From NCBI GenBank assembly GCA_963855995.1, contig OY979724.1:1895858-1959857 (forward strand): a stretch of 64,000 nucleotides of DNA, in the 5' to 3' direction. The notes under the pieces are model-generated. The model was not told the origin of the DNA and did not search any database. It saw nothing but the letters and a program-made list of their open reading frames with translations. The stretch is from Muricea muricata (Eukaryota > Cnidaria > Anthozoa > Malacalcyonacea > Plexauridae). The translations under genes were made by a program, and so were the position numbers. Positions 35,186 to 64,000 of this stretch are shown piece by piece (the stretch's first letter is position 1; each line of letters opens with the position of its first letter).

Positions 35186-38100
35186 CTAGGACGGTGGAAA
35201 TTTGTCCTCCAGGCCACTGTCCATAATTCGTATGGTCAGATCTTCCATATTGGGTAGAACGAACATTGACTAAAATAAAAACATAATGTGAATATTAACA
35301 AAATTTGTTTCCCAAGCTGGGAGACCAGGGTTCAAAGCCTTGGTTAGACCTTCACTCAAGATCTTAAAATAATAAAGAAAGGGTAATTCTATGGCGTCTT
35401 CTCGGATAAAGAGGTTAAACCGCAGGTACATCGGATCCCTCAATTGGAAATTAGCCTGTTCGGTAAGTCTATTTATTGTAAAGCTTTATTGTGGATAAAT
35501 TAAACCAAACCCAAACGGCACGAGTGCAAACGGGACTCGAAGACCCGTGCGAGGCACTCTACCTTTTATACACACAATATAAATTACTTCTACTAAATAG
35601 ATTATACATGCAGCAGTTAATATCAACACATGCCAATTGCTTGGAGCTCAGACAAAGGTGATTAAATTCATACTATTTCGAAGCTATTTACACACCAGCA
35701 TAATCCCAAAAAGGGACAATATGGTTAAAGAACGACGACTGAAAAGAACACGACGGCACTTTAAGTGCGAGAGAAGGATTTTTACAGTAAAGTGTTACGA
35801 GTACGATTATGACTAACAAATATTATTATGACACATAGTTGCATATTATGACACAAAGTTACATATATTTAAATCGTAAAAACCGTTCAGCAGTTTAAAG
35901 AAATATGTCAAACCCTTCATCTCTCTGTCGTAAGACAACGGAGAGAGGCTTAGCATCTTTAAACGGTCTTTATAGGAAAGGTCCCGCGTTTGGAGGATCT
36001 ATCTTGTGGCGCACCTTTGAACTCTCTCCAACTTTATTCTGTTGATGTAGTCACCCAATAGTCTGGAACACTATTAATCAGAAATGACAATCGAAAATAC
36101 ACGTTACCTTGAATTCTTGTTTTAGTTTGTATTCTATCCATTCTGTCACGTGAGTGAGTCGGACATTGCGCTCTCCAAGTTTTGGCCTCGCAATCAGACT
36201 TAATAATGGGTTGGTATGGAAACCCAGCCTAAACCAAACAGAATGATTATTACCTTGAAATTATCGCTTCCTAGATCTTGAAATGATTAGATTAGAATTG
36301 TGGAAAAATAGTAACACTGGATCAATAAGAGATGTTCCTTACTGGACCTCTAAGAAGAACATTTTCAGAACTGATAGAGTTATCCAGTATAAATAAAGAT
36401 GGTTTAGTTTAGGTTTCTTCCTGTATTAACACTGGATCAACAAGAGATGATGATCCTTATTGGACCTCTATGAAGAACAGTTTAGAGCTGAGAGAGCTAT
36501 TCAGTATAAATAGACGGTTCAGTTTATTTTCCCTCCTGTAGTAACACTGGACAAGAGCCACTCACTACAATATTAGAAATTCTACCATTCTTCTATCTTA
36601 CCACAATCTGTTAGAAGGAGGTGGCGGTATGTTCGCTGCCAAGGTACCCCGCAGCCTCACGACTTCAACACTCAACTCAATGGGAAGATTGGAAAACTTC
36701 TCAACAGCTCTCTGCACGACTTTCGTTTCGGCGGCTTTCTGGACCCATTTTGACTTTGCCACCTTCTCCAGCATGTTCAGAATCTTCTTGCCTTTTGGAT
36801 TCTTCACCTTGCCTGCCCATCCCTGGTTCTCCTGCTCAGAGGTCGGCGATGAACTCGATGCAATAGATCTAGGCAAACAGACCATGAACATTAAATACAA
36901 AATGCCTGGCTAAAGTTTTATTTACCAGATCGTACTGGCCAAGAAGAGTAAAATTCGAAGACAGATTTAAGGACGATTTTTATGAGTCTCAGTGTTATGT
37001 ACTCTGGTGAAAATCATGTTTTTGGTGTTACTTGAGTTCATTTCCAAACCGGGCAAGCTGAAAATATGCCTGATCTACGGCGGGAATCGAACTTACGACC
37101 TTTGGAATGCTAGCCCAATCAGTAGCGTAGCCAGCCCGACGATTCAGTCCCGCTACGCAAATATTTTCATGTTCGTTGATTGCGAAAACAATGAATTTCC
37201 AAAGAAATTAATACTTACAACAACTTGAAAATAACTTGAAATTTGCATAGCGGGACTAAATTGTCGGGCTGGGTACGCCACCTAGCCCAATGCTCTGCTA
37301 ACTGAGCAACGCGGTCATGGTCACGTCGGTTCGAGTATGTGTTATTTCAAAAATAAATCTAGTTTCTTCGATATGAATGCAATCTTGAGTGTAAGCATTT
37401 TAAAATATATATCCACTTTATAAAATATATATATGCACTAATTTGTATCTTAGCACGGGCATCCTCAATTTATACAACGTTGTTAAGGCTGGATGCTATG
37501 TATGAACTGTATCTGTATTACTTATAGCCTACCGCACACGAGAGTTGTACATCGGATGAGCAAAAGTTACTCGAGGATCTTAGCTCAGCCGATAGGCACG
37601 AGTAACCTTTGCTTTCGTACTGACCTTCGTTCACCATCAATCTCCGTATCAGAGCTCGTATTCTCCGCGCCACTTGCAGAACCTTCACTGGACTCGCTCT
37701 GACTACGATGATCCTCAAAAGACACCGGAGCATCATCCCATCCTTCGTCGACGTCACTTTCCGCGCTGCTGACGTCACTATAGCTGCTGTCTTCGCGGCT
37801 AAATTTAAGTATGACCTCATCGCCGTCACTTTTTCCTTGATCTGTGAGTCGCTTAAGGTAATACTCCAGGTTGATCATGGTTTCGATTGTCAGCATGATT
37901 CCACCCTCGTAATCGACGTCTAAGTCGACCCAGATCCCACGGTTATCTTGGTGTAGGTTGTGAGCGCGTTGGATTGTGGGCAGGGCGTGACCCAACTTCA
38001 TTTCTGTCACCTGAAACAGAATCGTGGAATACAGCGTGTCTCGGACAAAATATGTCAATGTGACAAAATAAGAAATAAAATCACTTTTGTTTGAAGCACA

Positions 38101-41100
38101 ACTTGAAGATTGATGAAACAAGAAGTTGGCAATGTAGCCTAGCCTCCCTGCAAATGTCGACTGCTTTCGTTTAGATACGACAGAGAAATAAAGGTTTTAA
38201 TTCATGCTTCAAAAATGCTGGAATCTCAATACGAGCAAAATGAAATGCACTCCGCATATACTCTGCATGTCAAAAACTCAATTTTGGTTAAGAAAGTTAC
38301 ATTTAAAATGCAGTTATTTGTTTTATACCAACATGGTTTGTGGTCATTTCGCTACTGAGGATGGTGCACATGTCGAATAAGAATTAAAGTTGATGAGAGT
38401 TGGCAGTCACATCTTGGTTAGCTGCTTTACTTGATGCTTTCCGAACACAATCATGTATTTTATTGAAGTGAATGAAAACATACTCAAAATACTTATCCTT
38501 TTATTTTGCAAGTGCGATGTTTAAAAAGTCCCCTTTGATAATTCGTGAATGCCAACTCTCATCAAAGTTTGACTCGTTCTTAACTTCTATCAAGCTCGCT
38601 AACCTACCTTGAGATAGCGAATGAAAGGCGGAAGTTTCATACGGGATATTTTATTCTGTATCCGGTTCTTGACCTTGTTGTTCCAGTATTCGCTTTTCCA
38701 TACATCCCAGAACAGTCGCCCTAGTAACGTGTTGACCCACGTCAGCTGCGCCTGCGATGAGGGCTCACGGTCAGCGCCGATCAACCTTGTCATGTATTGA
38801 GGAAAGCTGATCTGAGGGTTAAAGATGCTTTCGATGTCATGGGAATGTGTAGGAGGCTTCAGCACTCTCTCAATACGATAATACCTGGAAAAAGCCATGC
38901 ACTCAGTAAACGATACAGTGTATAGAAGAAAAACGAAGAGTAAAGCCAGGGCGGGCAGAGTAGGGGACCTGTATCTAAGGAGCGGACATGTACAAATTTG
39001 GCACAACAGGGGGGTGGTGTTGGGGGTGGGGTTGGGGGGGTGAATTGCGTCCTCGTTTGATCAGGGCTTAAGAGTGAAAGGATGTTTTCTCCGCAGTGGT
39101 AGAAACGACCATCGCTGTTATTAACGAAGCCAATTTTTACGTGTCACGTACAGAATCCATACTGGTGTCTACTGAATTTTTTTTTAGATCAGTGATTACG
39201 TACCATTCCTCCTTTGCCCGACCTGTAGGGCTAAATAGGAACATTCCTTCGGTAACAGAAGGAAGAACAAATGTATCCTCGGATCCCACGGCATCCCCAG
39301 CAGTCTTGTCCTCGTTTGGTTTCTCGAAAAGTTTCAAATAAATAGGATACTTCTTTGCCCAAAGCCGTTTCAAAGTCATTGTTTCAGGTACGAGTTCGAT
39401 CTCCCCGCCATTCTTCAGGTCGTATTCCTTGGATTCGCTGAATTTTACGCTGTCATTTTGTCCAAGCATGCTGCTTCGTTTGATTTTTGGCAGTTCGTCT
39501 TGTCTCGGCGAGTAGAACGTCATGGTGTGACCCGACAGGTTGACGTAAACTGGTCGAATTTGATCGACATCGCTAAAGTCGACCGGTTCAAGGGAGTTGT
39601 AATGAGACGTCTTGAAAAACCATCCCTGTTAAACAAGACAAATTTAATACCTCTTTACCCACATAGACTACAAGGCCAATTGTTGTCATTTTGCAAAAAT
39701 ACGACTTGTTATCAATGAGCAGATATCGGCATGGCTTGCGACGGCTTGTTGACGACAAGTTTGTTTCAAGTTGACGACAAGTCTGTTGCAAGTCGATTGC
39801 CAAACTTTGCTATCTACAGGCTTGCTCCAAGTTGTCGTCACAAGTCTGCGGCAAATGATAAGTTTCAGCAAAGCCTGATTGACTTGGGTTGCAAAGCTGT
39901 CACCAAAGCCAACTAAACGAAGCCTGACCGCCGCAGTTTTAAAACCAATTTCTTAGATTGTATTGGATTGAACTACACGAACAAAAACAGACTACGCAAC
40001 AACGTGACTGAGATATTAATATTTTGTATTTGTAGAGTTTATAATGATTATACTAATTACGATAATTAATGTTCAGTATGTTGGAATAAAAACATTTTAA
40101 ACCTGTTAATTTTTGTGTGATTTAAGACAATGTGGGTAAAATCTAAAGAATTCTTTAAATAGTCTAAGGAATTGAAAAATCTAATTGTGAGGGTCGCAAA
40201 CCTAACTATACAAACAGCAGCCGTGATGTCATTGTTTATATGAATCTGACTAAGGAGAGGGCAAGACTGAACTCTATTTTCAATAGCTACAGCTATATTG
40301 TCTTTCTTTGCAAATTGATAGATGTTAGATTCTTCTGGTGAAAACCGTGGGGAAATTCTCTACTTAATACAAACAGAATTTGGACGTTTTGAAGCGATAG
40401 CCATTCAGCGGCGGAAGTTAGTAAGTGAGAGGGTGAGAGCAAGCCTTAATTGCCTCGAAAGGTCGACTGTTTATTGTCTTAATCGTTTAGCTGGTGAAAT
40501 ATTCCAAAGTTTTGACTGCTTTACAGTCAATCTCCATTGACAGGAATCACATCAAATAAAACCAAACCAAGTCCAAAGAATTTCATGGTTTCGTTTGAAA
40601 GCTTGGGTAATTCTCGAATCTGCATTGAGTGATAATTAAATCTAAATTTCGTAATATGCTCTGCATGATTTCCGCTATAGAATTTCTCCAAAAGCATCAA
40701 AATTGGTGTATTTCGTTTGCATAGACACGAAAAATACAATCAGCAAAAACCAAGAAGCAAGAAACGGTATTTTGTAATCTTAAACTAAAGGAGAAATCCT
40801 TTTCCAAACCAATTAACGCTCTAGCGACGACCCTGCAAGGGAGACCGACGAAGCGGGAAGTCATCTGATTCTAAAACCGTATCTTTGCTTTCTTTTGTGT
40901 TTGCATCACGCTGTTGTAATGTAAAGACCTGTTCAAACGAAGCCAACATCATGCAACATTGCTGGGCCAACCTACCCCTGCTAAGTACGAATGTCAAGCA
41001 CGCACCCAAAATTTGGGTGCCACGTGACCAGCCTGTGTCAGGGTCTTCGCCGTAGCGCGGGTAGCGGAGGTGAAGACCATGAGAATCAGGTTGATGGTTT

Positions 41101-44100
41101 TGTGTGTTTTTTACTATACCAAGGTAATAGGTATGTAGGTTAATTCAAAATGCAATAATATGCAAGGTATACGAGAGAAACTATTTTTACAAAATCTGAC
41201 GAATTTATTTTATTTACAAACCCCGTCAAACCTGTTTGAATCCGCCCTAATGTCGATACATGACACCATTTGAGGTGGCCTTCTGATACAACAACACAAC
41301 ATTGGGTTATTTTTTATTTCAATACAAAGATGGAAACTCTTAGACAGGGTCGATAAAAACTCGTTTCAACAACAATATTCAAAGCACAGAAAACAGAGAG
41401 AAATGGCGAGTCTAGATTCGTTCGGTGGATATGAAGAAAATAGATTTGAAAGCAAAGTAGACATTAAAAACTGCAGTGCTCGGTAACTAAATTCAATGAC
41501 ATGCAAGGTATACTACACAAATTCTTGTCAGAAAAGTTGCTGAAATTATCCTGTTTATAAACCTGTCAAACCTGTTTGAATCCGCACGATACTCAATACC
41601 ATTTGAGTTGGTCTTATGACATGACAACACACTGTGCCACGTTGCGTTTGACTCATGACTGTTGTTGCAATTATTTGGATGTTATCAGCGCACTTTCTGC
41701 AGAAAGCCAAAGGTATTTTAACGTTACTTTCTTTTAAATTACCTCACGGTAAATATGGTTAACGAGTTCTTTATAAAGATGTATGATTTAGCAAGTCAAA
41801 ATATGCAGACGATTTTTATAGCGTGAACGGTGGGAACAATTTAGTAACGCTAGCACCACAGATCTGTTGCTCATCTCTTGAGTCATTGTTGTGTCGCACT
41901 CATAGTTTTTCTAACGAGTTTCGAAGAAGCTAGGCGCCTTTTAGGTTGATGTTTACGGCTAATCTCAGTCACTGACAAAATCATTGGGCGTGAAATATTT
42001 TACCCATACAATGATTGAAAAAGATTTAATTCACAGCCGGCGCCGTCATGATTATATAGAAATTCTGTATTCACGAGTTTACAAGATTAAGCGGAGAGTT
42101 AGCGGAGAGTTCAATATAAGCGCGAGTTAGTCTTTGGTCTTGGATGGTTTTGCTGTATAAAGCTATAAATTATAACTACAACTAATGGTGCGAAACTAAT
42201 AAGTTGCCTAAAAACAAGACACAGACTACAGAGATAACTGTTGACAGATTAAAAGTACCCCGATTTGTACTCATAGACACGCGCGCGAAAATAGCACACA
42301 TCAACACTTCTAAAAAAGTCTATATTTCTTTCAGGTTTGCTTTGTAAATCTGGTCTATATTCTTCAGCGGGAAAATTGACATGGCAGAGTCGCTAGCTGG
42401 AGCAGCAGCTCAGGGTATAAGCATCAATGTTTCACTGCCAGTTGGTGGTGATATTTCGATCAACATCGACAGTATCAGTGCTACATCGGTGAAAGACCTA
42501 TGTGAAACTGGGCTTAAACTGGGTGCAATGTACGCCGCTTACAGATTGATTGCGAAAGCAATCGATGCCGCTATTTCTCGAACTCTCGGTGGTGAGCGAG
42601 ATGATCAAAGGATTGGAGGCATTAGACCTGGTTCACTGCACGTCTTGCTGCACTGTTTGACGGACCAGAGACTCTTGGAAGTACTAGAGGATTTTGAATG
42701 CGGAACGATGAAAGAACGTTTAGAAAAGGAATTCTTGGAAATTGGAATTAAAGTGGAAGGATTGAAGGTTGAAATTGACAATATTGAAGAAGTCAAGAAA
42801 CGTAAAGAGCAAATGTAAGAAGTTTGCATGATCTATGTAAAATCACTTCAGTTTAGTGGAAGTAAATTAGGTCATAATATTTTCATTTTTTATCATATTA
42901 TATAGTTTGAGTTCCAAAAACGATATGGCTGAAAGTGATGAAACAAGTGAAGAAGCGAAGACAAGTGAGGTAAGCTCGTGCAAATGTGCGTACTTGTTCA
43001 ACGTTCAGGTGGATTCAAATAGCCACATATTTTTTTCTGAAAATCTTTTCTAAAAAATTATTCTTTACTTTCAATATGAAGTTGTCTTATGTTATAGCAA
43101 TATATGATTTTATTTTCTTTCAGAATGAAAATGGAGACAATAAGTCATTCGGCGGATATGAAGAAAAAAGATTTGAAGACAAAGTAAACATTACTAAGTT
43201 CAATTGTTCTGTTTGTCTCAAGGTCTTAAAGGACCCAGTACAATGTCCAAACGAACATTACTTCTGTCGCTCGTGTATTCAAAGAAGTTTGCGGGACAAC
43301 AAAACCTGTCCTATGTGCAAACATCCTCTGACGGAAGAAACCTTGACCAAACTACCGAGAATTGTGAAGGAAATGTGGGAAAATCTCATGATTCGATGCG
43401 ATAACGAAAACCGTGGTTGTGGAGAATTGATCAAACTTGAATTTCTGGATCGTCATGTCAGCAGCTGTGGCTATTCACCAACACGTTGCACGAACGCTGG
43501 TTGTGCTGAAGTGATAAACCGACACGAGAAAGAACGACACGAAAGCGAACTCTGTCAGTTTCGTAAGATCGTTTGCGACGATTGCGGAGAACAATTGATT
43601 TGGAAGTCAAGTCGTCTACACCCGTGCTTCATGCAAAAGCAAATAGACGATTTAGCGAGAAGATTGAACGTTGTTCAGAATGATGTTGGGGAAGTTAAAC
43701 ATGAAGTGAAGCTTACTAAAGAGGAAGTAAAGCTTACTAAAGAGGAAGTGAAGCTGACTAAAGAGGAAATGACATATCTAACAAGAGAAGCGACTGAAAG
43801 ATGTGATTTATTTACTGGCCGCCAGAAGATTTTCGTTTGTGGAGGGTCAGATGACAAGACTTTGCTTAATTCAGTTGAGTCCTATAGCTGGCCCGATAAT
43901 TCCTGGAGACTGGAACCAGCAATGAACGAGAAGCGATCAGCTCATTCAGCATTTGTCCTTGATCGTGAAATATTTGTCAGTGGCGGATGGACTGGAACCA
44001 AGTTCACTGACAGTATCGAGATCTTGAATGTTGACGAGGAGAATTTAAAATGGAAGCCACCACAGACTCCGCAGTCCAAGATGCCAATCAAGGGCCATGG

Positions 44101-45853
44101 GCACAAGATGGTTTATCACGAGAACAGTGTGATTCACACTGGCGGACTTCAGGAGAATGGTCATATTTCCACAGGGATTTACGAAATCAGTCTAAATCCT
44201 CCACACAACACGAAGTTATTGGCCAAGATGCCACAGCCAAGATGTTTCCATGGCTGTGAAATAATTGACAACCAAGTGCTAGTGGCTGGAGGAAAGACAT
44301 CACAATACGTCAAGGACACTAAAAACACTGTGTACGCATACGACCTTAACAACGGTGAACTTAAAACTTTACCACCGCTACCATCTCCTGTTACTGCGAT
44401 GGCTACTGTTAGTTATAAAGGTAATGTAATTTTGATCGGAGGTGTTGATGATGATGGTAAAACACTAAACACAGTCATGATATATAATGTGAAAACAGGG
44501 AAAATTAAAATGCTACCCTGTCTTAATCATAAAAGAGCACTATGTGCAGCAGTTATCACTGGCAATGTAATAGTAGTGATGGGAGGATATGATTATGAAA
44601 CAAACACTCGTCTCAATTCCGTCGAGTTCTTAGACTTAAGCACCAATGTATGGAGAGAACTGTCACCAATGACAACTAAACGAGCGGGTCTTAGTGCAGT
44701 TTTAAAACCAATTGTTTAGATTGTATATTTAAATGAACTGCAGTATGAACAAGAACATCTGGTTAAGTAATAGCATGACTTAGGAATACATATTAATCAT
44801 GATAAGTAATCAATGTTGACGAGCTGTATTCACCAATAATTTACTGAATGTTTAATAAAATTCATCACTTAAAATATTGCGTATTGGAAACTCAATTGAT
44901 CACTTGAAATATTGCATATTGGCAACTAAACAGTTGATGTTCACTTGAAAACTATGATAGAAACAATCCTTGTTCAGATTTATGTCGAACATTCAGGTGC
45001 ATGATGAGCCATCACGATTTGCTACATGAGAAAATATTTCCAAATAATATTACTGAAAATAAATTATGAGAGTATGATAACGTTTATCAAAAACTCAAAA
45101 TATCATGGCTCGTTTTTGGAGACATTATCTGTGGACAAAGAAGTTGGTAAATGCGTATAGGCAGGTAGGTAGGTAGGTAGGCAGGTACAGGTAGGTAGGC
45201 AGGTAGGTAAGGAAGGTAGGTAGGTAGGTAGGTAGATAGGTGGGTAGGTTGGTAGGTAGGTAGATAGGTTGGTAGGCAGGTAGGTAGGCAGGAAGGTAGG
45301 TTGGTAGGTAGGTAGGCAGGCAGGCAGGCAGGTAGGTAGGTAAAACATTATTTAAACACGTTTCCCTCGTCACCCATGGATAATTTTCATGAGGGGCATC
45401 GTCACCCATGGATAATTTTCATGAGGGGCATCACACATATTACATTTTTACTATTAAGATTACAACAAATTAAATATAAAAATAATATCGAATATATATT
45501 AAAATAATATAAAAATCACACATGAGGATAAAGATATTGAGAGCCAACACCATTCCATGCCTGACTCAGACCCACACATTAATGCATCAGATTTTTAAAA
45601 ATGTTTGTAAAATTCATGAATAACTAATCAGCTAATTACTCAATAAATGAACCATATTTATGTCACATATCTTTTTAAACCCCAATACAGGTCAACAATC
45701 TGATAAAGCTATGTCCTAATTAGTATTCTTAACTTTGATACAGCTGTATCCTAATTAGCATGCATTTATTAACTTTATTAAAAAATGTTCCTGATTAATA
45801 TTCGTATATTGGACGCGCACGAAACAAAGCTAATGACACTCCACATTCATTAC

Positions 45854-50915: not shown

Positions 50916-50922
50916 CGACGTC

Positions 50923-52699
50923 ACTATAGCTGCTGTCTTCACGGCTTAATTTAAGTATGACCTCATCGCTGTCGCTTTTTCCTTGATCTGTGAGTCGCTT
51001 AAGGTAATACTCCAAGTTGATCATGGTTTCGATTGTCAACATGATTCCACCCTCGTAGTCGACGTCTAAGTCCACCCAGATCCCACGGTTATCTTGGTGC
51101 AGATTGTAAGCGCGTTGTATTGTAAGCAGGGCGTGACCCAACTTCATTTCTGTCACCTGAAACAGAATCACGGAATACAGCGTGTCTCGGAAAAAATATG
51201 TCAATGTGACAAAATAAGAAAAAAAATTACTTTCGCTTGAAGTACTTTGCTTGAAGTACAACTTAAAGATTGATGAAACAAGAACTTGGCAATGTTGCCT
51301 AGCCTCCCTGCAAATGTCGGCAAAATGAAATGCGCTCCGCATATACTCTGCATGTAAAAAATTCAGTTTTGGAGAAAGTTACACTTAAAATGCCCCTATT
51401 TCTTTTATACCAACATGGTTTGTGTTCAGTTCGCTACTGAGGATGGTGCACATGTCGAATGATAATTAAAGTAGATGAGAGTTGGCAGTCACATCTCGGT
51501 TAGCTACTTTACTTGATGCTTCCCGAACACAATCATGTCTTTTATTGAAGTGAAAACATACTCAAAATACTCATCCTTTTCCTTTATAAGTGCGATGTTT
51601 AAAAAGTCCCGTTTGATTATTCGTGAATGCCAACTCTCATCAAAGTTTGACTCGCCCTTAACTTCTAATCCAGCTCGCTAACCTACCTTGAGATAGCGAA
51701 TGAAAGGCGGAAGTTTCATGCGAGATATTTTATTCTGTATCCGGTTCTTGACCTTGTTGTTCCAGTTTTCGCTTCTCCATACATCCCAGAACAGTCGCCC
51801 TAGTAACGTGTTGACCCACGTCAGTTGCGCCTGCGATGAGGGCTCACGGTCAGCGCCGATCAACCTTGTCATGTATTGAGGAAAGCTGATCTGAGGGTTA
51901 AAGATGCTTTCGAATTCATGGGAATGTGTAGGAGGCTTCAGCACTCTCTCAATACGATAATACCTGGAAAAAGCCATACACTTAGTAAACGATACAGTGT
52001 ATAAAAGGAAAACGAAGAGTAAAGCCAGGGCGGGCAGAGTAGGGGGCCTGTATCTAAGAAAGAGAGGACACGTGCAAATTTGGATAAACTGGGGGGTGGG
52101 AGTGGGGGGATGGTGAATTGCGTCCTCGTCTGATCAGGGCTTAACAGTGAAAGGATGTTTTCTCCGCAGTGGTAAAAACGAGGATCGCTATTATTAACGA
52201 AAGCCAATTTCTAAGTGTCACGAACAGAATCCATACTGGTGTCTATTGAATTTTATTTTAGATCAGTGATTACGTACCATTCCTCCTTTGCCCGACCTGT
52301 AGGGCTAAATAGGAACATTCCTTCGGTAACAGAAGGAAGAACAAATGTATCCTCGGATCCCACGGCATCCCCAGCAGTCTTGTCCTCGTTTGGTTTCTCG
52401 AAAAGTTTCAAATAAATAGGATACTTCTTTGCCCAAAGCCGTTTCAAAGTCATTGTTTCAGGTACAAGTTCGATTTCCCCGCCATTCTTCAGGTCGTATT
52501 CCTTGGATTCGCTGAATTTTACGCTGTCGTTTTGTCCAAGCATGCTGCTTCGTTTGATTTTGGGCAGTTCGTCTTGTCTCGGCGAGTAGAACGTCATCGT
52601 GTGACCCGACAGGTTGACGTAAACTGGTCGAATTTGATCGACATCGCTAAAGTCGACCGGTTCGAGGGAGTTGTAACGCGACGTCTTGAAAAACCATCC
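50923..52699 (-). pseudogene. Truncated TEX2 duplicate (exons 2-4 only)
   Basis: Exon counterparts: 52278-52699 (422 nt), 51687-51963 (277 nt), and 51156 down to about 50923. The first two keep the exact length, splice sites and reading frame of the working exons, with few amino acid changes (for example VWRSENW for VWKSEYW). The exon 4 copy stops after REDSSYSDV and runs into the discoidin pseudogene. There is no membrane-hairpin exon and no C-terminal SMP exons, so it cannot make TEX2. The intact frames suggest a recent duplication. Confidence 0.85.
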
Positions 52700-52777
52700 C
52701 TGTTAAACAAGACAAATTTAATACCTCCTACCCACATAGACTACAAGGCCAATTGTTGTCATTTTGCAAAAATACGA

Positions 52778-52968
52778 CTTGTTATCAATGAGCAGATATC
52801 GGCATGGCTTGCGACGGCTTGTTGACGACAAGTTTGTTTTAAGTTGACGACAAGTCTGTTGCAAGTTGAATGCCAAAATTTGCTATCCGCAAACTTGCTC
52901 CAAGTTGTCGTAACAAGTCTGCGGCAAATGGTAAGTTTCAGCAAGCCTCATTGACTTGTGTTGCAAAG
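52778..52968. repeat. CAAGTTGT-rich palindromic repeat (right duplication copy)
   Basis: Paralogous to 39705-39895, so the insertion preceded the segmental duplication. Confidence 0.6.
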
Positions 52969-53028
52969 CTGTCAACAAAGACAACTAAACCAAGCCTGAC
53001 CGCCGCCGTTTTAAAACCAATTTCCTAG
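52969..53028 (+). pseudogene. RING-kelch gene relic: last 19 codons and stop
   Basis: ACTAAACCAAGCCTGACC through CCAATTTCCTAG encodes TKPSLTAAVLKPIS and stop, the partner of the 39897 relic. Confidence 0.75.
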
Positions 53029-54281
53029 ATTCTATTGGACTGAACTACACGAACTAAAACAGACTAAGTAACAGCATGACTGAGATATTAATATTTTGTA
53101 TCTGTTTGTAGATTTTATAATGATTATACTAATTATGATAATTAATATTCAGTATCTTGGAATAAAAACATTTTAAACCTGTTAATTTTTGTGTGATTAA
53201 AGGAAATGTGGGAAAATCTAAAGAATTCCTTAACCCTAACTATACAAACAGCAGCCGTGATGTCAACGTTTATATGAATCTGACCAGAGAGAGGGCAAGA
53301 CTGAACTCTATTTTCAAAAGTTACAGCTATATTGTCTTTCTTTGCAAATTGATAGATGTTAGATTCTTCCGGAGAAAACCGCTGGGAAATTCTCTACTTA
53401 ATACAAACAGAATTTAAACGGAAGTCAGTAAGTGAGAGGGTGATTTCTCGAAAGGTCGACGGTTTATTGTCTTAATCGTTTACCTGGTGAAATGTTCCAT
53501 AGTTTTGACTGCTTTACAGTCAATCTCCATTGACAGGAATCACATCAAATAAAACCAAACCAGGTCCAAAGAATTTTATGGTTTCGTTTGAAAGCTTAAG
53601 TATTTCTCGAATCTGCATTGAGTGATACTTGAATCTAAATTTCGTAATATGCTCTGCATGATTTCCGCTATAGAATTTCTCCAAAAGCATCAAAATTGGT
53701 GCATTTCATTCGCATACACACGAAAAATACAATCAGCAGTAACCAAGACGCAACAAACGGTATTTTGTAATCTTACATTAAAGTAAGAAATCCTTTAGCA
53801 ACCCATAATAAAAACTTCTGATCTTTCAAATAAGGTTCATGTCTGATCGTGTAAACTATGTTACTACGATGCAATACAATAATATCCACTACTAACTTCG
53901 CGACAAACGGCCTTCGCTCAAAACGTCAAATTTTTGCTTGAATGGTTTAGACAGTAAAAGAAACCAATGGCTTTGTGTGTTTTGTACTACACCAAGGTCA
54001 CCACTACCTACACTGTCAACTTAATTCAAATGCAAAAATATGTTAGGTATACGAGAGAAACTATTTTTAGAAAATCTGAAGAATTTATTTTATGTACAAA
54101 CCTCGTCAAACCTGTTTGAATCCGCCCTGATGTCGATACTTGACACCACATGGGGTGGCCTTACGATATAACAACACATCATTGCGTTATTTTTATTTCA
54201 ATACGAAGATGGAAACTCTTAGACAGAGTCGATAAAATGTCGTTTCAATAACAATATTCAAAGCAGAGAAAACAGAGAGAA
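53029..54281. repeat. Shared RING-kelch flank, right copy; 5' region of the short-form gene
   Basis: Collinear with 40.0-41.4 kb. The last 250 bp must include the promoter and 5' UTR of the 54282 gene. No counterpart of the TRADD-N-like exon is present. Confidence 0.6.
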
Positions 54282-55817
54282 ATGGCGAGTCTAGATTCGT
54301 TCGGTGGATATGAAGAAAATAGATTTGAAAGCAAAGTAGACATTAAACTGCAGTGCTCGGTATGTCTCAGGGTCTTCAAGGACCCAGTACAATGTCCGAA
54401 CGAACACTACTTCTGTCGCTCGTGTATTCAAACGAATTTGCGCCACAACGCCGAAACCTGTCCTGTGTGCCAACATCCTCTGACGGCAGAAACCTTGACC
54501 AAACCACCGAGAATTTTGACGGAAATGTTGGAGAGTCTCATCATTAGGTGTGATTACGAACTCTATGGTTGTCAAGAATTGATCAAGCTTGAATTTCTTG
54601 ACGAGCATGTCAGGAGCTGTGGCTATTCACCAACACGTTGCACAAACGCTGGTTGTGCTGAAGTGATAAACCGACACGACAAAGAACAACATGAACGCGA
54701 ACTCTGTCAGTTTCGTAAGATCGTTTGCCAAGATTGCGGAGAACAACTAATATGGAAGTCAAGTCGTCTACACCCGTGCTTCATGCAAAAGCAAATAGAC
54801 GATTTAGCGAGAAGATTGGACGTTGTTCAGATTGATATGAGCGAAGTCAAACATGAAGTGAAGCTGACTAAAGAGGAAATGACATATCTTACGAGAGAAG
54901 CGACTGAAAGATGTGATCTATTTAATGGCCGCCAGAAGATTTTCGTCTATGGAGGGTGGAATGGGGAGATTAGCATTAATTCAGTAGAGTCCTACAGCTG
55001 GCCCGATGATACCTGGACATTGGAAGCAGCAATGAACGAGGAGAGATCAGGCCATTCAGTATTTGTCCATGATCGTGAAATTTATGTCGGCGGCGGATTG
55101 ACTGGGACCGAGTGCACTGACAGTATCGAGATCTTGAATGTTGACGAGGAGAATTTGAAACGAAAGCCGCAGTTCAAGATGCCAATCAAATGTAAAGGAC
55201 ACAAGATGGTTTGTCACGAGAACAGTGTGATTCACACTGGCGGACGCTCCGACGATGGCAGTGTTTCAGACGCGATTTACGAAATCAGTCTACAACCTCC
55301 ACACAACACAAAGTTATTGGCCAAGATGCCAGAGCCAAGATGTTTCCATGGCTGTGAAATAATTGACAACCAAGTAGTAGTGGCTGGAGGAATGACATCA
55401 AAATACATCGATGACGCTAAAAACACTGTGTACGCATACGATCTTCACAACAAGGAACTTAAAACTTTAACGCCACTTCCATTTCCTGTTACTGAGATGG
55501 CTACTGTTAGTTATAAAAATAATGTAATTTTGATCGGAGGTGTTGATGATGATCGTAAAACATTAAACACAGTAGCAATGTACGATGTCAAAACGGGGGA
55601 AACTAAAGAGTTACCTTGTCTTAATCATGAAAGAGCAGGGTGTGCAGCAGTTATCACTGGCAATGTCATAGTAGCGATGGGAGGATATGTTTATGAAACT
55701 GAAACTTATCTTAATTCTGTCGAGTTCTTAGACTTAAGCACCAATGTATGGAGAGAACTGTCACCAATGACAACTAAACGAAGAGTGGCTGCTGCAGTTT
55801 TAAGACCAATTTGCTAG
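54282..55817 (+). CDS. Short-form RING / TRAF-zinc-finger / kelch protein, single exon
   Basis: An intact 511-aa frame without introns, clearly paralogous to the 42.4-44.7 kb gene from the RING onward. RING C3HC4 at residues 25-64 (CSVC, CPNEHYFCRSC, CPVC). TRAF-type zinc fingers about 86-165, with the same CGYSPTRCTNAGC and CQDCGE signatures. A short coiled coil carries only one KLTKEEM heptad where the paralogue has three. Kelch propeller about 222-511 (IFVYGG, YVGGG, VVVAGG, VLIGG, VAMGG). Its start (gagaaATGG) replaces the upstream TRADD-N-like and linker exons, for which I find no counterpart in 53.0-54.28 kb. Divergence is concentrated in the kelch loops, as expected if those surfaces bind variable partners. 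Likely role: E3 ubiquitin ligase (inference from domains). AATAAA at about 55961. It is flanked on the left by a truncated TEX2 duplicate and on the right by the foldback element. Confidence 0.88.
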   Translation: MASLDSFGGYEENRFESKVDIKLQCSVCLRVFKDPVQCPNEHYFCRSCIQTNLRHNAETCPVCQHPLTAETLTKPPRILTEMLESLIIRCDYELYGCQELIKLEFLDEHVRSCGYSPTRCTNAGCAEVINRHDKEQHERELCQFRKIVCQDCGEQLIWKSSRLHPCFMQKQIDDLARRLDVVQIDMSEVKHEVKLTKEEMTYLTREATERCDLFNGRQKIFVYGGWNGEISINSVESYSWPDDTWTLEAAMNEERSGHSVFVHDREIYVGGGLTGTECTDSIEILNVDEENLKRKPQFKMPIKCKGHKMVCHENSVIHTGGRSDDGSVSDAIYEISLQPPHNTKLLAKMPEPRCFHGCEIIDNQVVVAGGMTSKYIDDAKNTVYAYDLHNKELKTLTPLPFPVTEMATVSYKNNVILIGGVDDDRKTLNTVAMYDVKTGETKELPCLNHERAGCAAVITGNVIVAMGGYVYETETYLNSVEFLDLSTNVWRELSPMTTKRRVAAAVLRPIC

Positions 55818-56628
55818 ATTGATCTTATTGAACTGTATGAACAAAAGGCAGCTAATGTAACAGCACGACTGATGTAATAAGTATATTGAATTTATGTAGA
55901 ATTTATAATATATTATACTAATTATATAATTAATCAATGTTTATAAGTTAAATGTTGGAATAAAAACCTCTCAAACGTTTTAATTTTTGTGTGATTAGAG
56001 GAAATGTGGGAAAATCTTGGGAAAACCTTAATCAAATGGTCTGGGCAATTCAAAACCGAATTGTGAAGACACTCCCTCCTAACGTCCAGTTATTAATGGA
56101 GCCCCCCCCCCCCCTCCTCCCACCTTTTGTAATATCATTTTACAAGCTACATTTCATGAGAAAGAACAAGAGTAAAACTCACATTTATATCTGAACACAT
56201 TCATGTCATACAGCATGATGTTTTTGCCATATGTTTATAATCTCCCAAATTAACATTGCTTCGAAACACTTCATAACAACAAATAACATATTTCGCCAAA
56301 TACTGAATCTCTCCAAAAACATCAAAATTGATGCATTTTATTTGCACAGACACGAAACACACAATCAGCAAACACCAGCAACAAACGGTATTTTGTCATC
56401 TTAAACTAAAGTGAGAAATCCTTTTGCAACCCATAATCAAAACTTCTGATCTTTTCAAATAAGGTTCATGTCTGACCGTGTAAACTATGATGATATCTAC
56501 CACTAACTTCGCGACGAACGGCCTTCGCTCAAGACATCCAAATTCTGCTTGTAATGTTCAGCTGGTAAAAGAAATAATGGTTATGTCTGTTTTATGCTAC
56601 ACCACCCACACTGGTAACTAAATGCAAT
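55818..56628. repeat. 3' flank of the short-form RING-kelch gene
   Basis: AATAAA at about 55961. The following sequence (AATTTTTGTGTGATTAGAGG; TTTTATTTGCACAGACACGA) is repeated at 40.1, 53.2, 59.1 and 62.9 kb. Confidence 0.65.
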
Positions 56629-57220
56629 TATGGGCGCCATTTGTAAAAAAATTATTTATGTCGAAAATGTGTATTTTTTTATTATTTACCTAAATAATTC
56701 ATTATTTACAAAAAATGCGTTACTGTTTGTTAAATAATCCATAGATTATTTCAAAATAATCCACACATTATTTACAAACAATCTTGGAAACATTTCATTA
56801 TTTGTAAATAAGACAAGGATTGTTCGCAAATAATGCTTCGCTGTTTTATATAATAAATGGATTATTTAATAAATAATCCATTATTTATTTAAATAATAAA
56901 TTGTTTATTTAGACCAAATAAATTATATAACAAATAATCCATTTCACTTATTTATAATAAATGGATTATTTAGCAAATAGTAGATTATTTATTTAAATAA
57001 TAAATGGCTTATTTAGAGCGAAACGAATTATATAATATATAATTTTTTTCACCCTGAACCGCACGCCGCCCGCCAAATATAAAAAAAATATGGCGACCAA
57101 CCAAGTCAGCTGGCCGGTAGTTGTGCAGCCGAAACAAAATACCGGGGGGAGTAAACCAAAGCAAAAATAGCGGGATTTTCTTTCCCGCATCGATCTTCTT
57201 TGTTTGTCGAACACATTATC

Positions 57221-57781
57221 AGGGACCTTACGATTTATAGGACGGCAACGCGACGGCAACGGCGAGAAAACACTTTATGATGTAGCTTAGTAAAGCATAG
57301 AAGTTGTTTATCATCAATCGCATAAATTGAGTTAACACATGTTAACAACACTTTGGACATGAGCTACATGTTTAAAAAGAGTTCTTAACTAGATCGAATT
57401 TAAAACTCCACCAGCTAAATTCAATACGCCTGCGTTCAGTGGTGTAGCCAGCGTCGATAATTGGAGGGACGAATATTCATGTATCATGTTTTGCATCATT
57501 AATTTCTTTTGAAATCGATTGTTTTTAAGGTCTGTGAACACAAATATATGAATATTCGCCCCTCCAATTATCGAAGCTGGCTACGCCACTGCCTGCGTTA
57601 ATACAATAAGTGAAAACATTTCATTTGCCGTCGTCAACAATACGAGAGCCGCTTTTCAAATATTCAACACTACTATAATTATTTATATAATTCACAACTA
57701 TAATTATTCACTTCTTTTCAATTGACTGTTTGTCTTAGGACGTTCCCGTCACGTTGTCGTTCTGTAAATCGTAAGGTCCCT
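57221..57781. mobile_element. 561-bp nested element (AGGGACCTTACGATTTA ends) in foldback copy 1
   Basis: The terminal AGGGACCTTACGATTTA is mirrored by TAAATCGTAAGGTCCCT. It interrupts only one arm of the foldback element. It contains a hAT MITE at 57437-57591. Confidence 0.8.
57437..57591. mobile_element. hAT-type MITE, 155 bp, target duplication CCTGCGTT
   Basis: CAGTGGTGTAGCCAGCGTCG ... GCTGGCTACGCCACTG, with CCTGCGTT at 57429-57436 and 57592-57599. Ends resemble the 15204 and 37120 elements, interior different. Confidence 0.9.
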
Positions 57782-58095
57782 AATGTCGTCAGTCGTCGAA
57801 CGCCGAACTTCAGATATGAATAATTCATCAACATCGCCAACAAATGTCAATCAGGTCTTGAGCCAGATTGCAAGGCTCATTGAAAGTGTAAGCTCTGACA
57901 CTCGGAACAATCCTTCAACGGTTTCAAGCAATCCTGAACCGAGACAGACGGAAGCATCTCGGCCACAATTCCGAGTATCAGAGCTTACACTTTCAATGAG
58001 CCTTGCAATCTGGCTCAAGACCTCATTGACATTTGTTGGCGATGTTGATGAATTATTCATATCTGAGGTTCGGCGTTCGACGACTGACGACAATA
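57782..58095 (+). repeat. Central palindrome with captured coding-like sequence
   Basis: Arms of about 122 bp encode, from either side inward, a plausible protein N terminus (MSSVVERRTSDMNNSSTSPT, VLSQIARLIESVSSDTRN); a spacer of about 60 bp follows. I do not recognise the source gene. The 178-aa frame reading through both arms is a palindrome artefact. Confidence 0.7.
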
Positions 58096-58685
58096 ATGTG
58101 TTCGACAAACAAAGAAGATCGATGCTGGAAAGAAATTCCCGCTATTTTTGCTTTGGTTTACTCCCCCCGGTATTTTGTTTCGGCTGCACAACTACCGGCC
58201 AGCTGACTTGGTTGGTCGCCATATTTTTTTTACATTTGGCGGGCGGCGTGCGGTTCAGGGTGAAAAAAATTATATATTATATAATTCGTTTCGCTCTAAA
58301 TAAGCTATTTATTATTTAAATAAATAATCTACTATTTACTAAATAATCCATTTATTATAAATAAGTGAAATGGATTATTTGTTATATAATTTATTTGGTC
58401 TAAATAAACAATTTATTATTTAAATAAATAATGGTTATTTATTAAATAATCCATTTATTATATAAAACAGCGAAGCATTATTTGCGAACAATCCTTGTCT
58501 TATTTACAAATAATGAAATGTTTCCAAGATTGTTTGTAAATAATGTGTGGATTATTTTCAAATAATCTATGGATTATTTAACAAACAGTAACGCATTTTT
58601 TGTAAATAATGAATTATTTAGGTAAATAATGAAAAAATCTACACATTTTCGACATAAATAATTTTTTTACAAATGGCGCCCCATA

Positions 58686-59085
58686 TTATACTACACAAAT
58701 TCTTGTTAAAAACGTCACTGGATTTATCCTGTTTATAAACCTGTCAAACCTGTTTGAATCCGCACGTTACTTGATACCACTTGAGGTGGTCTTGTGATAT
58801 AACAACACATCATTGCGCTATATACATTGATATTTGTTGCGTTAGATTCAAGATTGTGGTTGCAATTATTTGGATGTTATTAGCGCACTTTCTGCACAAA
58901 GATAAAGGTATCTTAACAATACTTTCTTTTAAATTACCTTACCTTAAATATGGTTAACGAGTTCTTTATATAGATATATGATTTAGCAATTCAAAATACG
59001 CAGACGATTTTTAAAGCGTGCATGGTGGGAACAATTTAGAACGCTAGCTCCACTACTGGCTACGGATCTGCATGTTACTCCTCTG
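58686..59085 (+). repeat. Partial RING-kelch 5' flank (orphan)
   Basis: Matches 41500-41860 and 63200-63590 (CTGTTTATAAACCTGTCAAA, GGTTAACGAGTTCTTTATAT) and then breaks off before any exon, switching to 3'-flank sequence near 59100. Confidence 0.75.
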
Positions 59086-60369
59086 TTTACAAAAGTCACA
59101 TGTTAAAATACAAACATCTTAAACCTTTTAATTTTTGTGTGATGTGAGGAAATGTGGAAAAATCTTCGGAAAGCCTTAACTAAATAGTCTGAAGAATTCA
59201 AAACCTAATTGTGAAGGCACTCCCTTCTAATCTCCACTTATTCATGGAGCCCCCCTCCTCTTCTCACATTTTGTAATATCATTTTACAAGCTACATTTCA
59301 CATTCATGGCCATATGTTTATAATCTCCCAAACTAACACTGCTTCGAAACAATTTATAACAACAAATAACATATTTTGCCAACAATTGAGATACAATGCA
59401 CGGTAGCATTATAATGCACAAATGATACGTCCATTTCTTAGAAATATTTACCGTCGAGACATGGTTGTAAAGCATGAGATTTCCAAGCTTTTACATTTCT
59501 GAGCAATAAGGTATAGATTTTAAAGTGAGCACAAGTGTTCTCAAGGATGTTGTGAAGTTCTATTCCAAGAAAATGTTAAACTCGCCTTCGGCTTTAGTTT
59601 GTATAATATCCCATACAACTATACGATCACTCACGTTGGCACATCAAGTTGCAACAAGCCAAAGTGCACTCGAATTTTAATAGCACAGATTATTCTAAAC
59701 TCTGCTGGTATTAAGTAGAGAATTATCCAACGGTTTTCTCCAGAAGAATCAATTTGCAAAGAAAGACAATATATAGGTATAACTATTGGAAATAGAGTTC
59801 AGTCTAGTCGTTCCTTTAGTCAGATATAAACACAAACATTGACATTTGTGATTTGACAAATGTATAGTCGAAAGCTAGGACGACAGAGCAGCCTTGGCAG
59901 GAACGGTCGACGGTTCAGTGTCCCCACATTAAGAGTTGAATCACGTAAATTTGTGAAATAAAACATATGTTTTTCAGATGTCAACATTTATACCTGACTA
60001 ATGAATGTACAAGACTGAACTCTATTTTCAAAAGTTATAGCTATATTGCCTTTCTTTGCAAATCGATACATACTATATTCTTCCGGAGAAAACCATTAGA
60101 CAATTCTGTGCCTGATACAAACAGAATTCGGACGTTTTGAAGCGATAGCCATTCAGCGGGGCGGAAGTTAGTAAGTGAGAGCTACCTTTGGCTTGAAAGG
60201 TCGACGGTTCAGTGTCTTAATCGTTTAGCTTTAGTGAAATGTTCCATAGTTTTGTGGGCTTTACAGTCGATTTCGATGGACGGAACCACGTCAAATAAAA
60301 TCAAACCAAGTCTAAGAAATTTTACGGATTCGTTTACAGGTGCGAGTATTTCACGAATCTGCATTGAGC
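59086..60369. repeat. RING-kelch 3'-flank duplicate, no gene
   Basis: AATTTTTGTGTGATGTGAGG at 59130 and CATTCAGCGG near 60150 correspond to 40.1-40.6 kb. The gene expected between the flanks is absent. Confidence 0.6.
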
Positions 60370-60510
60370 TTTCAAACTTTATTCAAACAAATACCAATAT
60401 TGGTACATTGAATACCTACATATACATTAGTTACAAAAAAACTACAAGATATAAAAAAGACATTACAGTATATAAACTTACAAATACTTCATTCAGGCTA
60501 ACTCATTCAA
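60370..60510 (-). mobile_element. LINE 3'-end fragment, distal part
   Basis: Sequence between the duplicated flank and the foldback element. Together with 62569-62826 it forms one LINE tail split by foldback copy 2, since ATTCAATATG bridges the two sides. Confidence 0.5.
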
Positions 60511-61414
60511 TATGGGGCGCCATTTGTAAAAAAATTATTTATGTCGAAAATGTGTAGATTTTTTCATTATTTACCTAAATAATTCATTATTTACAAAAAA
60601 TGCGTTACTGTTTGTTAAATAATCCATAGATTATTTGAAAATAATCCACACATTATTTACAAACAATCTTGGAAACATTTCATTATTTGTAAATAAGACA
60701 AGGATTGTTCGCAAATAATGCTTCGCTGTTTTATATAATAAATGGATTATTTAATAAATAACCATTATTTATTTAAATAATAAATTGTTTATTTAGACCA
60801 AATAAATTATATAACAAATAATCCATTTCACTTATTTATAATAAATGGATTATTTAGTAAATAGTAGATTATTTATTTAAATAATAAATGGCTTATTTAG
60901 AGCGAAACGAATTATATAATATATAATTTTTTTCACCCTGAACCGCACGCCGCCCGCCAAATGTAAAAAAAATATAGCGACCAACCAAGTCAGCTGGCCG
61001 GTAGTTGTGCAGCCGAAACAAAATACCGGGGGGAGTAAACCAAAGCAAAAATAGCGGGAATTTCTTTCCAGCATCGATCTTCTTTGTTTGTCGAACACAT
61101 TATTGTCGTCAGTCGTCGAACGCCGAACCTCAGATATGAATAATTCATCAACATCGCCAACAAATGTCAATGAGGTCTTGAGCCAGATTGCAAGGCTCAT
61201 TGAAAGTGTAAGCTCTGATACTCGGAATTGTGGCCGAGATGCTTCCGTCTGTCTCGGTTCAGGATTGCTTGAAACCGTTGAAGGATTGTTCCGAGTGTCA
61301 GAGCTTACACTTTCAATGAGCCTTGCAATCTGGCTCAAGACCTGATTGACATTTGTTGGCGATGTTGATGAATTATTCATATCTGAAGTTCGGCGTTCGA
61401 CGACTGACGACATT

Positions 61415-61975
61415 AGGGACCTTACGATTTACAGAACGACAACGTGACGGGAACGTCCTAAGACAAACAGTCAATTGAAAAGAAGTGAATAATTATAGTT
61501 GTGAATTATATAAATAATTATAGTAGTGTTGAATATTTGAAAAGCGGCTCTCGTATTGTTGACGACGGCAAATGAAATGTTTTCACTTATTGTATTAACG
61601 CAGGCAGTGGCGTAGCCAGCTTCGATAATTGGAGGGGCGAATATTCATATATTTGTGTTCACAGACCTTAAAAACAATCGATTTCAAAAGAAATTAATGA
61701 TGCAAAACATGATACATGAATATTCGTCCCTCCAATTATCGACGCTGGCTACACCACTGAACGCAGGCGTATTGAATTTAGCTGGTGGAGTTTTAAATTC
61801 GATCTAGTTAAGAACTCTTCTTAAACATGTAGCTCATGTCCAAAGTGTTGTTAACATGTGTTAACTCAATTTATGCGATTGATGATAAACAACTTCTATG
61901 CTTTACTAAGCTACATCATAAAGTGTTTTCTCGCCGTTGCCGTCGCGTTGCCGTCCTATAAATCGTAAGGTCCCT
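61415..61975. mobile_element. 561-bp nested element in foldback copy 2
   Basis: Same length, ends and position as 57221-57781 in reverse orientation. Confidence 0.8.
61605..61759. mobile_element. hAT-type MITE inside foldback copy 2
   Basis: Target duplication AACGCAGG at 61597-61604 and 61760-61767, the reverse complement of that in copy 1. Confidence 0.9.
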
Positions 61976-62568
61976 GATAATGTGTTCGACAAACAAAGAA
62001 GATCGATGCGGGAAAGAAAATCCCGCTATTTTTGCTTTGGTTTACTCCCCCCGGTATTTTGTTTCGGCTGCACAACTACCGGCCAGCTGACTTGGTTGGT
62101 CGCCATATTTTTTTTATATTTGGCGGGCGGCGTGCGGTTCAGGGTGAAAAAAATTATATATTATATAATTCGTTTCGCTCTAAATAAGCCATTTATTATT
62201 TAAATAAATAATCTACTATTTGCTAAATAATCCATTTATTATAAATAAGTGAAATGGATTATTTGTTATATAATTTATTTGGTCTAAATAAACAATTTAT
62301 TATTTAAATAAATAATGGATTATTTATTAAATAATCCATTTATTATATAAAACAGCGAAGCATTATTTGCGAACAATCCTTGTCTTATTTACAAATAATG
62401 AAATGTTTCCAAGATTGTTTGTAAATAATGTGTGGATTATTTTGAAATAATCTATGGATTATTTAACAAACAGTAACGCATTTTTTGTAAATAATGAATT
62501 ATTTAGGTAAATAATAAAAAAATACACATTTTCGACATAAATAATTTTTTTACAAATGGCGCCCCATA

Positions 62569-62826: not shown

Positions 62827-63180
62827 TTGAATCATGCCCTGCGGAGTTTCCGCTACCGAATTTCTCCAAAAGCATCAAAATTGGCGCGTTTTATTTGCAC
62901 AGACACGAAACACACAATCTCGAAAAACCAGGAATGTACAAACGGTTTTTTATAATCTTAAACCAAAGTCAGAAATCCTTTTGCAACCCATAATCAAAAC
63001 TTCTGATCTTTCAAATAAGCTTCATGTCTGATCGTGTAAACTATGATGCAATACAATAATATCTACTACTAACTTCACGACGAACGGCCTTCGCTCAAGA
63101 CATCCAAATTCTGCTTGAAATGTTCAGATGGTAAAAGAAACAATGGTTTTGTCTGTTTTATGCTGCACCATCAACACTGG
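62827..63180. repeat. RING-kelch 3'-flank duplicate
   Basis: TTTCTCCAAAAGCATCAAAA and CTTCGCTCAAGACATCCAAA match 56.3-56.6 and 53.6-53.95 kb. Confidence 0.65.
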
Positions 63181-64000
63181 TAACTAAATGCAATAACATG
63201 CGAGGTATACTACACAAATTCTTGTTAGAAACGTCGCTGGATTTGTCCTGTTTATAAACCTATCAAACCTGTTTAAATCCGCACCAAAGTGGATACTTCA
63301 TACCATTTGAGGTGGTCTTGTGATGTAACAACACATCATTGCGCTATACGCATTGGTATTCGTCAGTTGCGTTTGATTCAAGATTGTTGTTGCAATTATT
63401 TGGATGTATTAGCGGCCATCCTGCAGAAAACTAAAGGTACCTTAACAGTACTTTCTTTTAAATTACCTTACGTTAAATATGGTTAGCGAGTTCTTTATAT
63501 AGATACAAGATTTTAGCAATTCAAAATATGCAGACGATTTTTAAAGCGTACACGGTGGGAACAATTTAGGCTAGCTCCCACTACTAGCTTCAGATCTGTT
63601 ACTCATCTGTTGAGTCTTTGTTGTGTGCACTCCTAGTTTTTCTAGCGAGTTTCGAAGAAGCTAAACGCCTTTTAGGTTGATGTTTACGGCTAATCACAGT
63701 CACTGACAAAATCATCGGGCGTGAAATATTTTACCCAAACAATGATTGAAAAAGATATAATTCACAGCCGTCATGATTACATAGAAATTCTGCATTCATG
63801 AGTTTATCAAAGTAAATTAATATAAAGGACGTTAAGTTTCGCTCGAGTTAGCGGAGAGTTCAATATAAGCGCGAGTTTGTCTTTAGTCTTGGACGGTTTT
63901 GCTGTATAAAGCTATAAATTATAACCACAACCAACGGTGCGAAACTAAGTTGCCCAAAAACAAGCCACAGACAACAGTGATAACTGTTGACAGACTTATT
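63181..64000 (+). promoter_or_regulatory. 5' flank of a further long-form RING-kelch copy (gene beyond the window)
   Basis: Collinear with 41487-42255 upstream of the 697-aa gene (GAGTTTCGAAGAAGCTA, TTTTACCCA-AACAATGATTG, GCTGTATAAAGCTATAAATT, CAGTGATAACTGTTGACAGA). In the left copy the ATG follows about 130 bp after the matching point, so a third gene probably starts within about 200 bp past base 64000. Confidence 0.7.

Follow-up and report, generated by a model that had tools for sequence, protein, structure and literature searches.

Vertebrate TRADD and the RING ligase TRAF2 are separate proteins that are linked by a MATH domain. TRIM E3 ligases carry a RING, a zinc finger and a coiled coil, followed by a beta-rich recognition domain. 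Cnidarian expansions of the TRADD-N domain with variable partners have already been described (Kaur et al. 2021, PMC8195603), and the main text of that paper gives GTPases, TPR and TRIM E3 ligases as partners in the DEDD2/TRADD clade, beta-propellers as partners in other animals, and a Death-like domain, usually a DED, as the neighbor of TRADD-N in the expansions. The same main text notes that MATH domains have not expanded in parallel in the animals in which TRADD-N has (PMC8195603).

The gene considered here lies in a 64,000-nt stretch of a contig of Muricea muricata (the window; Table 1). With a probability of about 0.7, we read it as a genuine lineage-specific octocoral gene of one origin, encoding in order TRADD-N, an acidic linker, a RING, SIAH/TRAF-type fingers, a coiled coil and a kelch propeller. 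An earlier note on this DNA had proposed an undescribed immune or cell-death system, a claim that fails because expansions in which TRADD-N changes partners, with E3 ligases among them, have already been published (main text of PMC8195603). The combination of TRADD-N with a RING-finger-kelch body may be new within this known, changeable family of invertebrate immune-type proteins, since the word kelch is absent from that main text. Searches for literature joining TRADD-N, RING and kelch found none, those for octocorals and TRADD returned unrelated works only, and the exact architecture, the single origin and the one-face variability described below were not found in the literature searched, the main text of PMC8195603 included. 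With the expansions as presented there, the locus shares the TRADD-N fold, the expansion in cnidarians and a constant part with changing partners; it differs in that the partner is a RING-finger-kelch body and that exon 1 gave no Death-like match.

Table 1. Features of the fusion gene and of its surroundings (window coordinates).
Feature	Position	Strand	Remarks
Upstream/promoter region of fusion gene	41482..42248	+	~82% identical to 63179-63994
TATAAA	42156-42161	+	kept in second copy at 63905-63910
Exon 1, TRADD-N domain	42381..42814	+	144 codons + two bases, phase-2 end
Gly84-Ser85 turn, 'uS' motif position of TRADD-N superfamily	42630..42635	+	predicted strands 76-82, 86-92
Intron 1	42815..42905	+	91 nt
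Exon 2, 21-residue acidic linker LSSKNDMAESDETSEEAKTSE	42906..42969	+	in-frame ATG at 42925-42927
Intron 2	42970..43123	+	
Exon 3: RING, zinc fingers, coiled coil, kelch, stop codon	43124..44719	+	
C3HC4 RING finger	43202..43318	+	PF13923 41.8 bits, cut-off 27
SIAH/TRAF-type zinc fingers	43379..43633	+	Sina_ZnF 34.0 bits (cut-off 32); zf-TRAF 25.3 (cut-off 27)
Predicted helical, probably coiled coil	43634..43816	+	low model confidence
Six-bladed kelch propeller	43817..44716	+	Pfam and model; exon 3 residues 232-531
AATAAA, probable polyadenylation signal	44854..44859	+	sequence inspection
RING-finger-kelch gene, own ATG, no TRADD-N, class M	54282..55817	+	
Second copy of fusion-gene upstream region	63179..63994	+	at window end

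The three exons join in phase to 697 aa and a stop, with GT..AG at all borders; the donors are AAAT/GTAAGA (exon 1) and TGAG/GTAAGC (exon 2), and the acceptors ..TATATAG/T (exon 2) and ..TTTCTTTCAG/A (exon 3). That an in-phase join stays open was not accepted as proof of the model, being weak evidence by itself: 28 direct joins across a single GT-AG intron between the same pair of ORFs likewise stay open. On sequence grounds, it is the comparison with relatives that raises the model above chance. These borders and their conservation across relatives confirm the three-exon model first proposed for the locus, and the transcript is presumably spliced in this way in vivo. Read on into intron 1, exon 1 completes one codon (Met) and then meets a stop (42815-42818); intron 1 retention would yield a 145-aa protein with TRADD-N only, possibly a decoy form.

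The first 145 residues had been taken to be TRADD-N-like, and the structural check named for that reading, a model and a Foldseek comparison against TRADD-N, has now been run and leaves it standing. A structure model of exon 1 has a mean pLDDT of 69.9 (the remaining four models, 43-55; residues 2-19, below 50) and forms an RRM-like alpha+beta sandwich that fits TRADD-N structures. In a structure comparison, the TRADD entries 1f3v and 1f2h ranked first and second by Z (11.1 and 7.1), all other chains shown reaching at most 6.7, and Foldseek placed the same two entries at ranks 1 and 11. Members of the TRADD-N superfamily carry a tiny residue followed by Ser or Cys in the beta2-beta3 turn (PMC8195603). 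At the corresponding turn, Gly84 falls in a column with Gly in 59 of 61 aligned rows (60 relatives and the window), and the Ser85 column holds Ser (55) or Cys (6) in all 61, the turn lying between predicted strands and its register with TRADD Ser67 being approximate.

Profile searches of the window's own exon 1 gave no Pfam match and no meaningful NCBIfam match. Across the 61 exon-1 rows, Pfam found TRADD-like_N (PF20694) weakly in 11 (best E 0.0011), Band_7, the commoner, weakly in 15 (best E 0.003) and DUF2095 in three at a better E (0.00075). The TRADD-like_N match in one relative, P0121, scored 20.2 bits against a cut-off of 23.7 and covers residues 103-150 (profile 21-68), on the conserved core. 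An hhalign comparison of the exon-1 alignment with a single human TRADD-N sequence was not significant (probability 0.3%), the exon-1 profile retrieved only the unrelated YebC (E 1.3) among sequences of solved structures, and an exact-pattern scan of viral contigs with a 41-base piece of exon 1 gave no match. Exon 1 might instead have a general ferredoxin/RRM-like alpha+beta fold that does not descend from TRADD-N, which we consider highly improbable: both TRADD entries lead by Z, with 1f3v, aligned over residues 17-145 at 17% identity, standing 4.4 units above the best unrelated chain; the Gly and Ser/Cys of the turn agree with the superfamily motif; and the PF20694 match in P0121 covers that same core.

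A candidate membrane segment at about residues 37-68 was set aside because the modeled helices 47-53 and 55-68 belong to the matched TRADD-N fold. The 25 Pfam families shown, of 37 in all, include no Death domain. Exon 3 is filled by the RING, fingers, coiled coil and kelch, with no C-terminal Death domain as in a TRADD orthologue; Pfam finds no Death-like domain in exon 1, where TRADD-N begins at about residue 17 of the annotated exon. Unlike vertebrate TRADD, to which its aligned part is 17% identical, the predicted protein thus has no Death domain that we could find, and its ligase sits in the same chain and is not recruited through MATH.

Searching with exon 1 gave 189 relatives at E<=1. 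In 51 of the 56 closest, the exon end reads Met followed by a stop (21) or by Tyr (30), as expected from a GTAAG/GTGAG or GTATG donor in phase 2; the other five comprise one Thr-Tyr, two with Ile before the stop or Tyr (incompatible with the donor G), one Ile-Asp and one unaligned. The exon end is compatible with a phase-2 donor (../GTA or ../GTG) in 52 of these 56. At the aligned site in the best 120 of the 189, 64 have a stop or Tyr, 55 another residue and one is unaligned, the 55 being mostly a more distant group in which many show Arg-Tyr a few codons on. Five long relatives carry the TRADD-N module, each with a different partner (vWA-like, at 22.4 bits against a cut-off of 23.8; IRG GTPase; TPR; VLIG/URGCP; DUF4559), a constant module with changing partners within one lineage; a RING or kelch is present in none of the five. 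The junction in the vWA-like protein P0122, KEII-VSSKK, compares with KEQI-LSSKN in the window gene. The five are octocoral gene models; in those of Paramuricea the added domain follows an exon end of this type.

On the other side of the junction, the RING-kelch relatives (best 120 of 253) split by their 5' ends. Class M genes have their own Met shortly ahead of an FGGYEE stretch. Class N, with 11 members among the 120 listed including the window's, begins ..FFQ/NENGDN.. or nearly so without a Met, and all 11 ORFs share a leader of a pyrimidine-rich acceptor and then the exon start. Class N forms a single clade (SH-aLRT 99) nested among class M genes, in a quick tree of 117 of 121 rows in which 49 of 114 inner branches have support below 80; P0238 was left out for a motif mismatch, and P0149, P0182 and P0232 under a 450-residue length rule. 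Among the matches listed (the best 120 of 189 for exon 1 and of 253 for RING-kelch), four of the five exon-1 relatives of at least 90% identity lie on contigs bearing class N exons, contig identity being inferred from equal size. The fifth, P0060, with 62% coverage, has exon 1, the intron and exon 2 consecutively in a copy that looks degenerate, and no RING-kelch match is listed for its contig. More distant exon-1 relatives share contigs with class M, with falling frequency (in 17 of 49 cases and, farther out, in 1 of 66, among the matches listed), and for the class N contigs of 589047, 19665 and 882023 bases (the last the window's own) no exon-1 match of at least 90% was among those listed. 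Matches are 90%-identity clusters represented by their longest contig only, so copies on other contigs may be hidden. The exon-1 alignment drew on 60 of its 120 listed relatives plus the window, and the RING-kelch alignment on 48 of 120 plus two window ORFs.

These data bear on whether the locus is two adjacent genes, a 145-aa TRADD-N protein ending at the stop in 'intron 1' and a RING-kelch gene starting at the exon 2 ATG (42925). Exon 1 is indeed open to a stop directly after the donor, the exon 2 ATG is in frame and in fair context, class M shows RING-kelch ORFs that do without TRADD-N, and many exon-1 relatives are ORFs of about 150 aa, though most of these were probably predicted with splicing ignored. 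We nevertheless regard two genes as unlikely. Because intron 1 is just 91 nt, a separate promoter for the second gene would have to sit in exon 1; the exon ends of 52 of the 56 closest relatives suit a donor; the exon 2 Met is Thr in P0060, albeit a degenerate-looking copy; and Paramuricea models, from an annotation for which RNA-seq was among the inputs (PMC7467007), run from a like exon end into other domains. Exon ends, class N leader, clade and contig co-occurrence together support, indirectly, the fusion of TRADD-N to RING-kelch that the earlier note had put forward.

The domains proposed for exon 3 are borne out by Pfam, where RING and kelch exceed the curated cut-offs, and by the AlphaFold2 model (mean pLDDT 75.8), in which the six-bladed propeller is mostly above 90, the RING/finger part is weaker and the helical linker is of low confidence. 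The finger scores, Sina_ZnF above and zf-TRAF just below its cut-off, come from the post-RING part scanned alone. All eight zinc ligands of the C3HC4 RING are present without exception in the 50 aligned rows (48 relatives and two window ORFs), as in an E3 ligase, and the protein would probably act as one. Two class M relatives outside this alignment, P0229 and P0240, each lack one ligand Cys, and certain RING-kelch copies may thus be inactive as ligases. Within the predicted coiled coil, a 21-nt repeat (43696-43772, 3.7 copies) encodes seven-residue units; the gene at 54282 lacks two of these, and the length of this part varies between copies.

The series RING, TRAF/SIAH-type fingers and coiled coil is that of the TRAF family, the coiled coil being here a low-confidence helical stretch, but the kelch propeller stands in place of the MATH (TRAF-C) domain that defines TRAFs. 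The proposal that adaptor and ligase form one chain is supported as to the domains, TRADD-N, RING, fingers and kelch, whereas TRADD recruiting a TRAF within that chain is an analogy only, because the usual TRAF partner surface, MATH, is absent. TRIM E3 ligases share the working parts of RING, zinc finger, coiled coil and beta-rich recognition domain; here no B-box is among the Pfam matches shown, kelch replaces SPRY, and TRADD-N is added in front. Class M, with PDZRN3/NRDP1-like names in Paramuricea records, shares the RING-finger-coiled coil-kelch body (67-82% identity in aligned rows) but has its own ATG just ahead of the RING part and an ORF without TRADD-N.

The kelch is the most variable part of class N copies, and its variability is concentrated in the strand 2-3 and 4-1 loops: these make up 128 of 300 positions and contain 33 of the 40 most variable ones. 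Variability on this face is 0.58 bits, against 0.17 in the loops of the opposite face and 0.20 in the strands; in class M the figures are 1.05, 0.72 and 0.64. A circular-shift control was as high in 14 of 299 shifts for class N and 23 of 299 for class M. No positive selection on the variable face was found in the single testable pair (dN/dS 0.63, against 0.49 elsewhere in the propeller). KEAP1-type propellers grip their ligands with the 2-3/4-1 face, and this precedent, with the variability of the same face, leads us to read the propeller as the probable target-binding part.

The tandem array said to lie behind the gene is real in that a related gene is present at 54282-55817 (83.6% DNA identity over 1.6 kb), but this is the one further intact copy in the window. 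A second fusion gene may lie just beyond base 64000, its exon 1 about 130 bases past, because the window ends in a copy of the upstream region and P0131, a further class N ORF, is on a contig equal in size to that of the window. At 41094-41485 stand a class M upstream region and the first 83 coding bases (41403-41485), 89% identical to 53967-54362; the fragment ends at 41485, where the fusion-gene upstream region starts, with GGTA common at the break, and would be a recombination relic in the array. It forms the end of a segmental duplication (37771-41485 and 50917-54362, ~90% identity, ~13 kb separation) whose copies hold minus-strand ORFs ahead of each RING-kelch start; the three such ORFs of the first copy match no Pfam family over cut-off. 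A near-perfect inverted pair of 2,056 nt (56632-58687 and 60509-62564), with smaller inverted repeats in each arm, looks like a foldback-type mobile element. Its left arm splits one more copy of the fusion-gene upstream region, the third, into 56301-56628 and 58687-59087, parts that are near-adjacent within the 62854-63611 copy. Farther off, a dense minisatellite block with inverted flanks (12-13 nt periodicity; flanks 90%) spans 10735-13401, and 13543-14109 is a 21-nt array.

Such surroundings could suggest that the fusion transcript is real but recent, neutral and non-functional, a product of an unstable tandem array. The class M gene cut after 83 nt adjoins the fusion upstream region, segmental copies and the 2-kb inverted element are close by, and P0060 looks degenerate. 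This reading is quite improbable in our judgment, as the eleven class N ORFs (534-568 aa) are open, RING ligands and many propeller residues are invariant in the alignment, and exon 3 has a dN/dS of 0.47 against its class M neighbor. The four closest exon-1 relatives among the matches listed keep 93-97% protein identity, against ~82% DNA identity for the upstream copies in the window, a contrast that is suggestive only because the pairs compared differ.

Returning to a genuine gene, its simplest and most likely history, from the sequences compared, is a single origin of the fusion and then copying. In one event, a first exon encoding TRADD-N, which ended in phase 2 and brought its own promoter, would have been joined to a class M body that had its own ATG, and the fused gene would later have been copied, with further breaks. 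Retrotransposition has been proposed for TRADD-N partner joins (Kaur et al. 2021, main text of PMC8195603); the flanks here look more like segmental recombination.

We propose a model where the kelch propeller would bind its target through the variable face, the coiled coil would multimerise the chain, TRADD-N would serve as an adaptor or switch tying it to an immune or cell-death complex, and the RING would ubiquitinate the bound target or complex in the manner of TRIM and TRAF ligases. For other proteins, the main text of Kaur et al. suggests that propellers could trigger the TRADD-N switch and that ligase partners point to ubiquitination of invader proteins (PMC8195603). The fusion gene would unite propeller trigger and ligase on a single chain. 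More tentatively, and rather less likely than not, class N genes could be a self-contained recognition system that combines a ubiquitin ligase with a TRADD-N switch and, in the kelch, a diversifying sensor. The phase-2 TRADD-N exon would then be a plug-in cassette that octocorals splice onto varied immune effectors, and the class N proteins might be germline pathogen or self/non-self receptors with a ubiquitination output.

Beyond these possibilities, a gene that places adaptor, ligase and variable propeller in one chain makes gating of the ligase by TRADD-N testable, and poses the question of whether the propeller face selects the target. The fusion apparently has one origin in one lineage, and the unfused gene lies 11 kb off.
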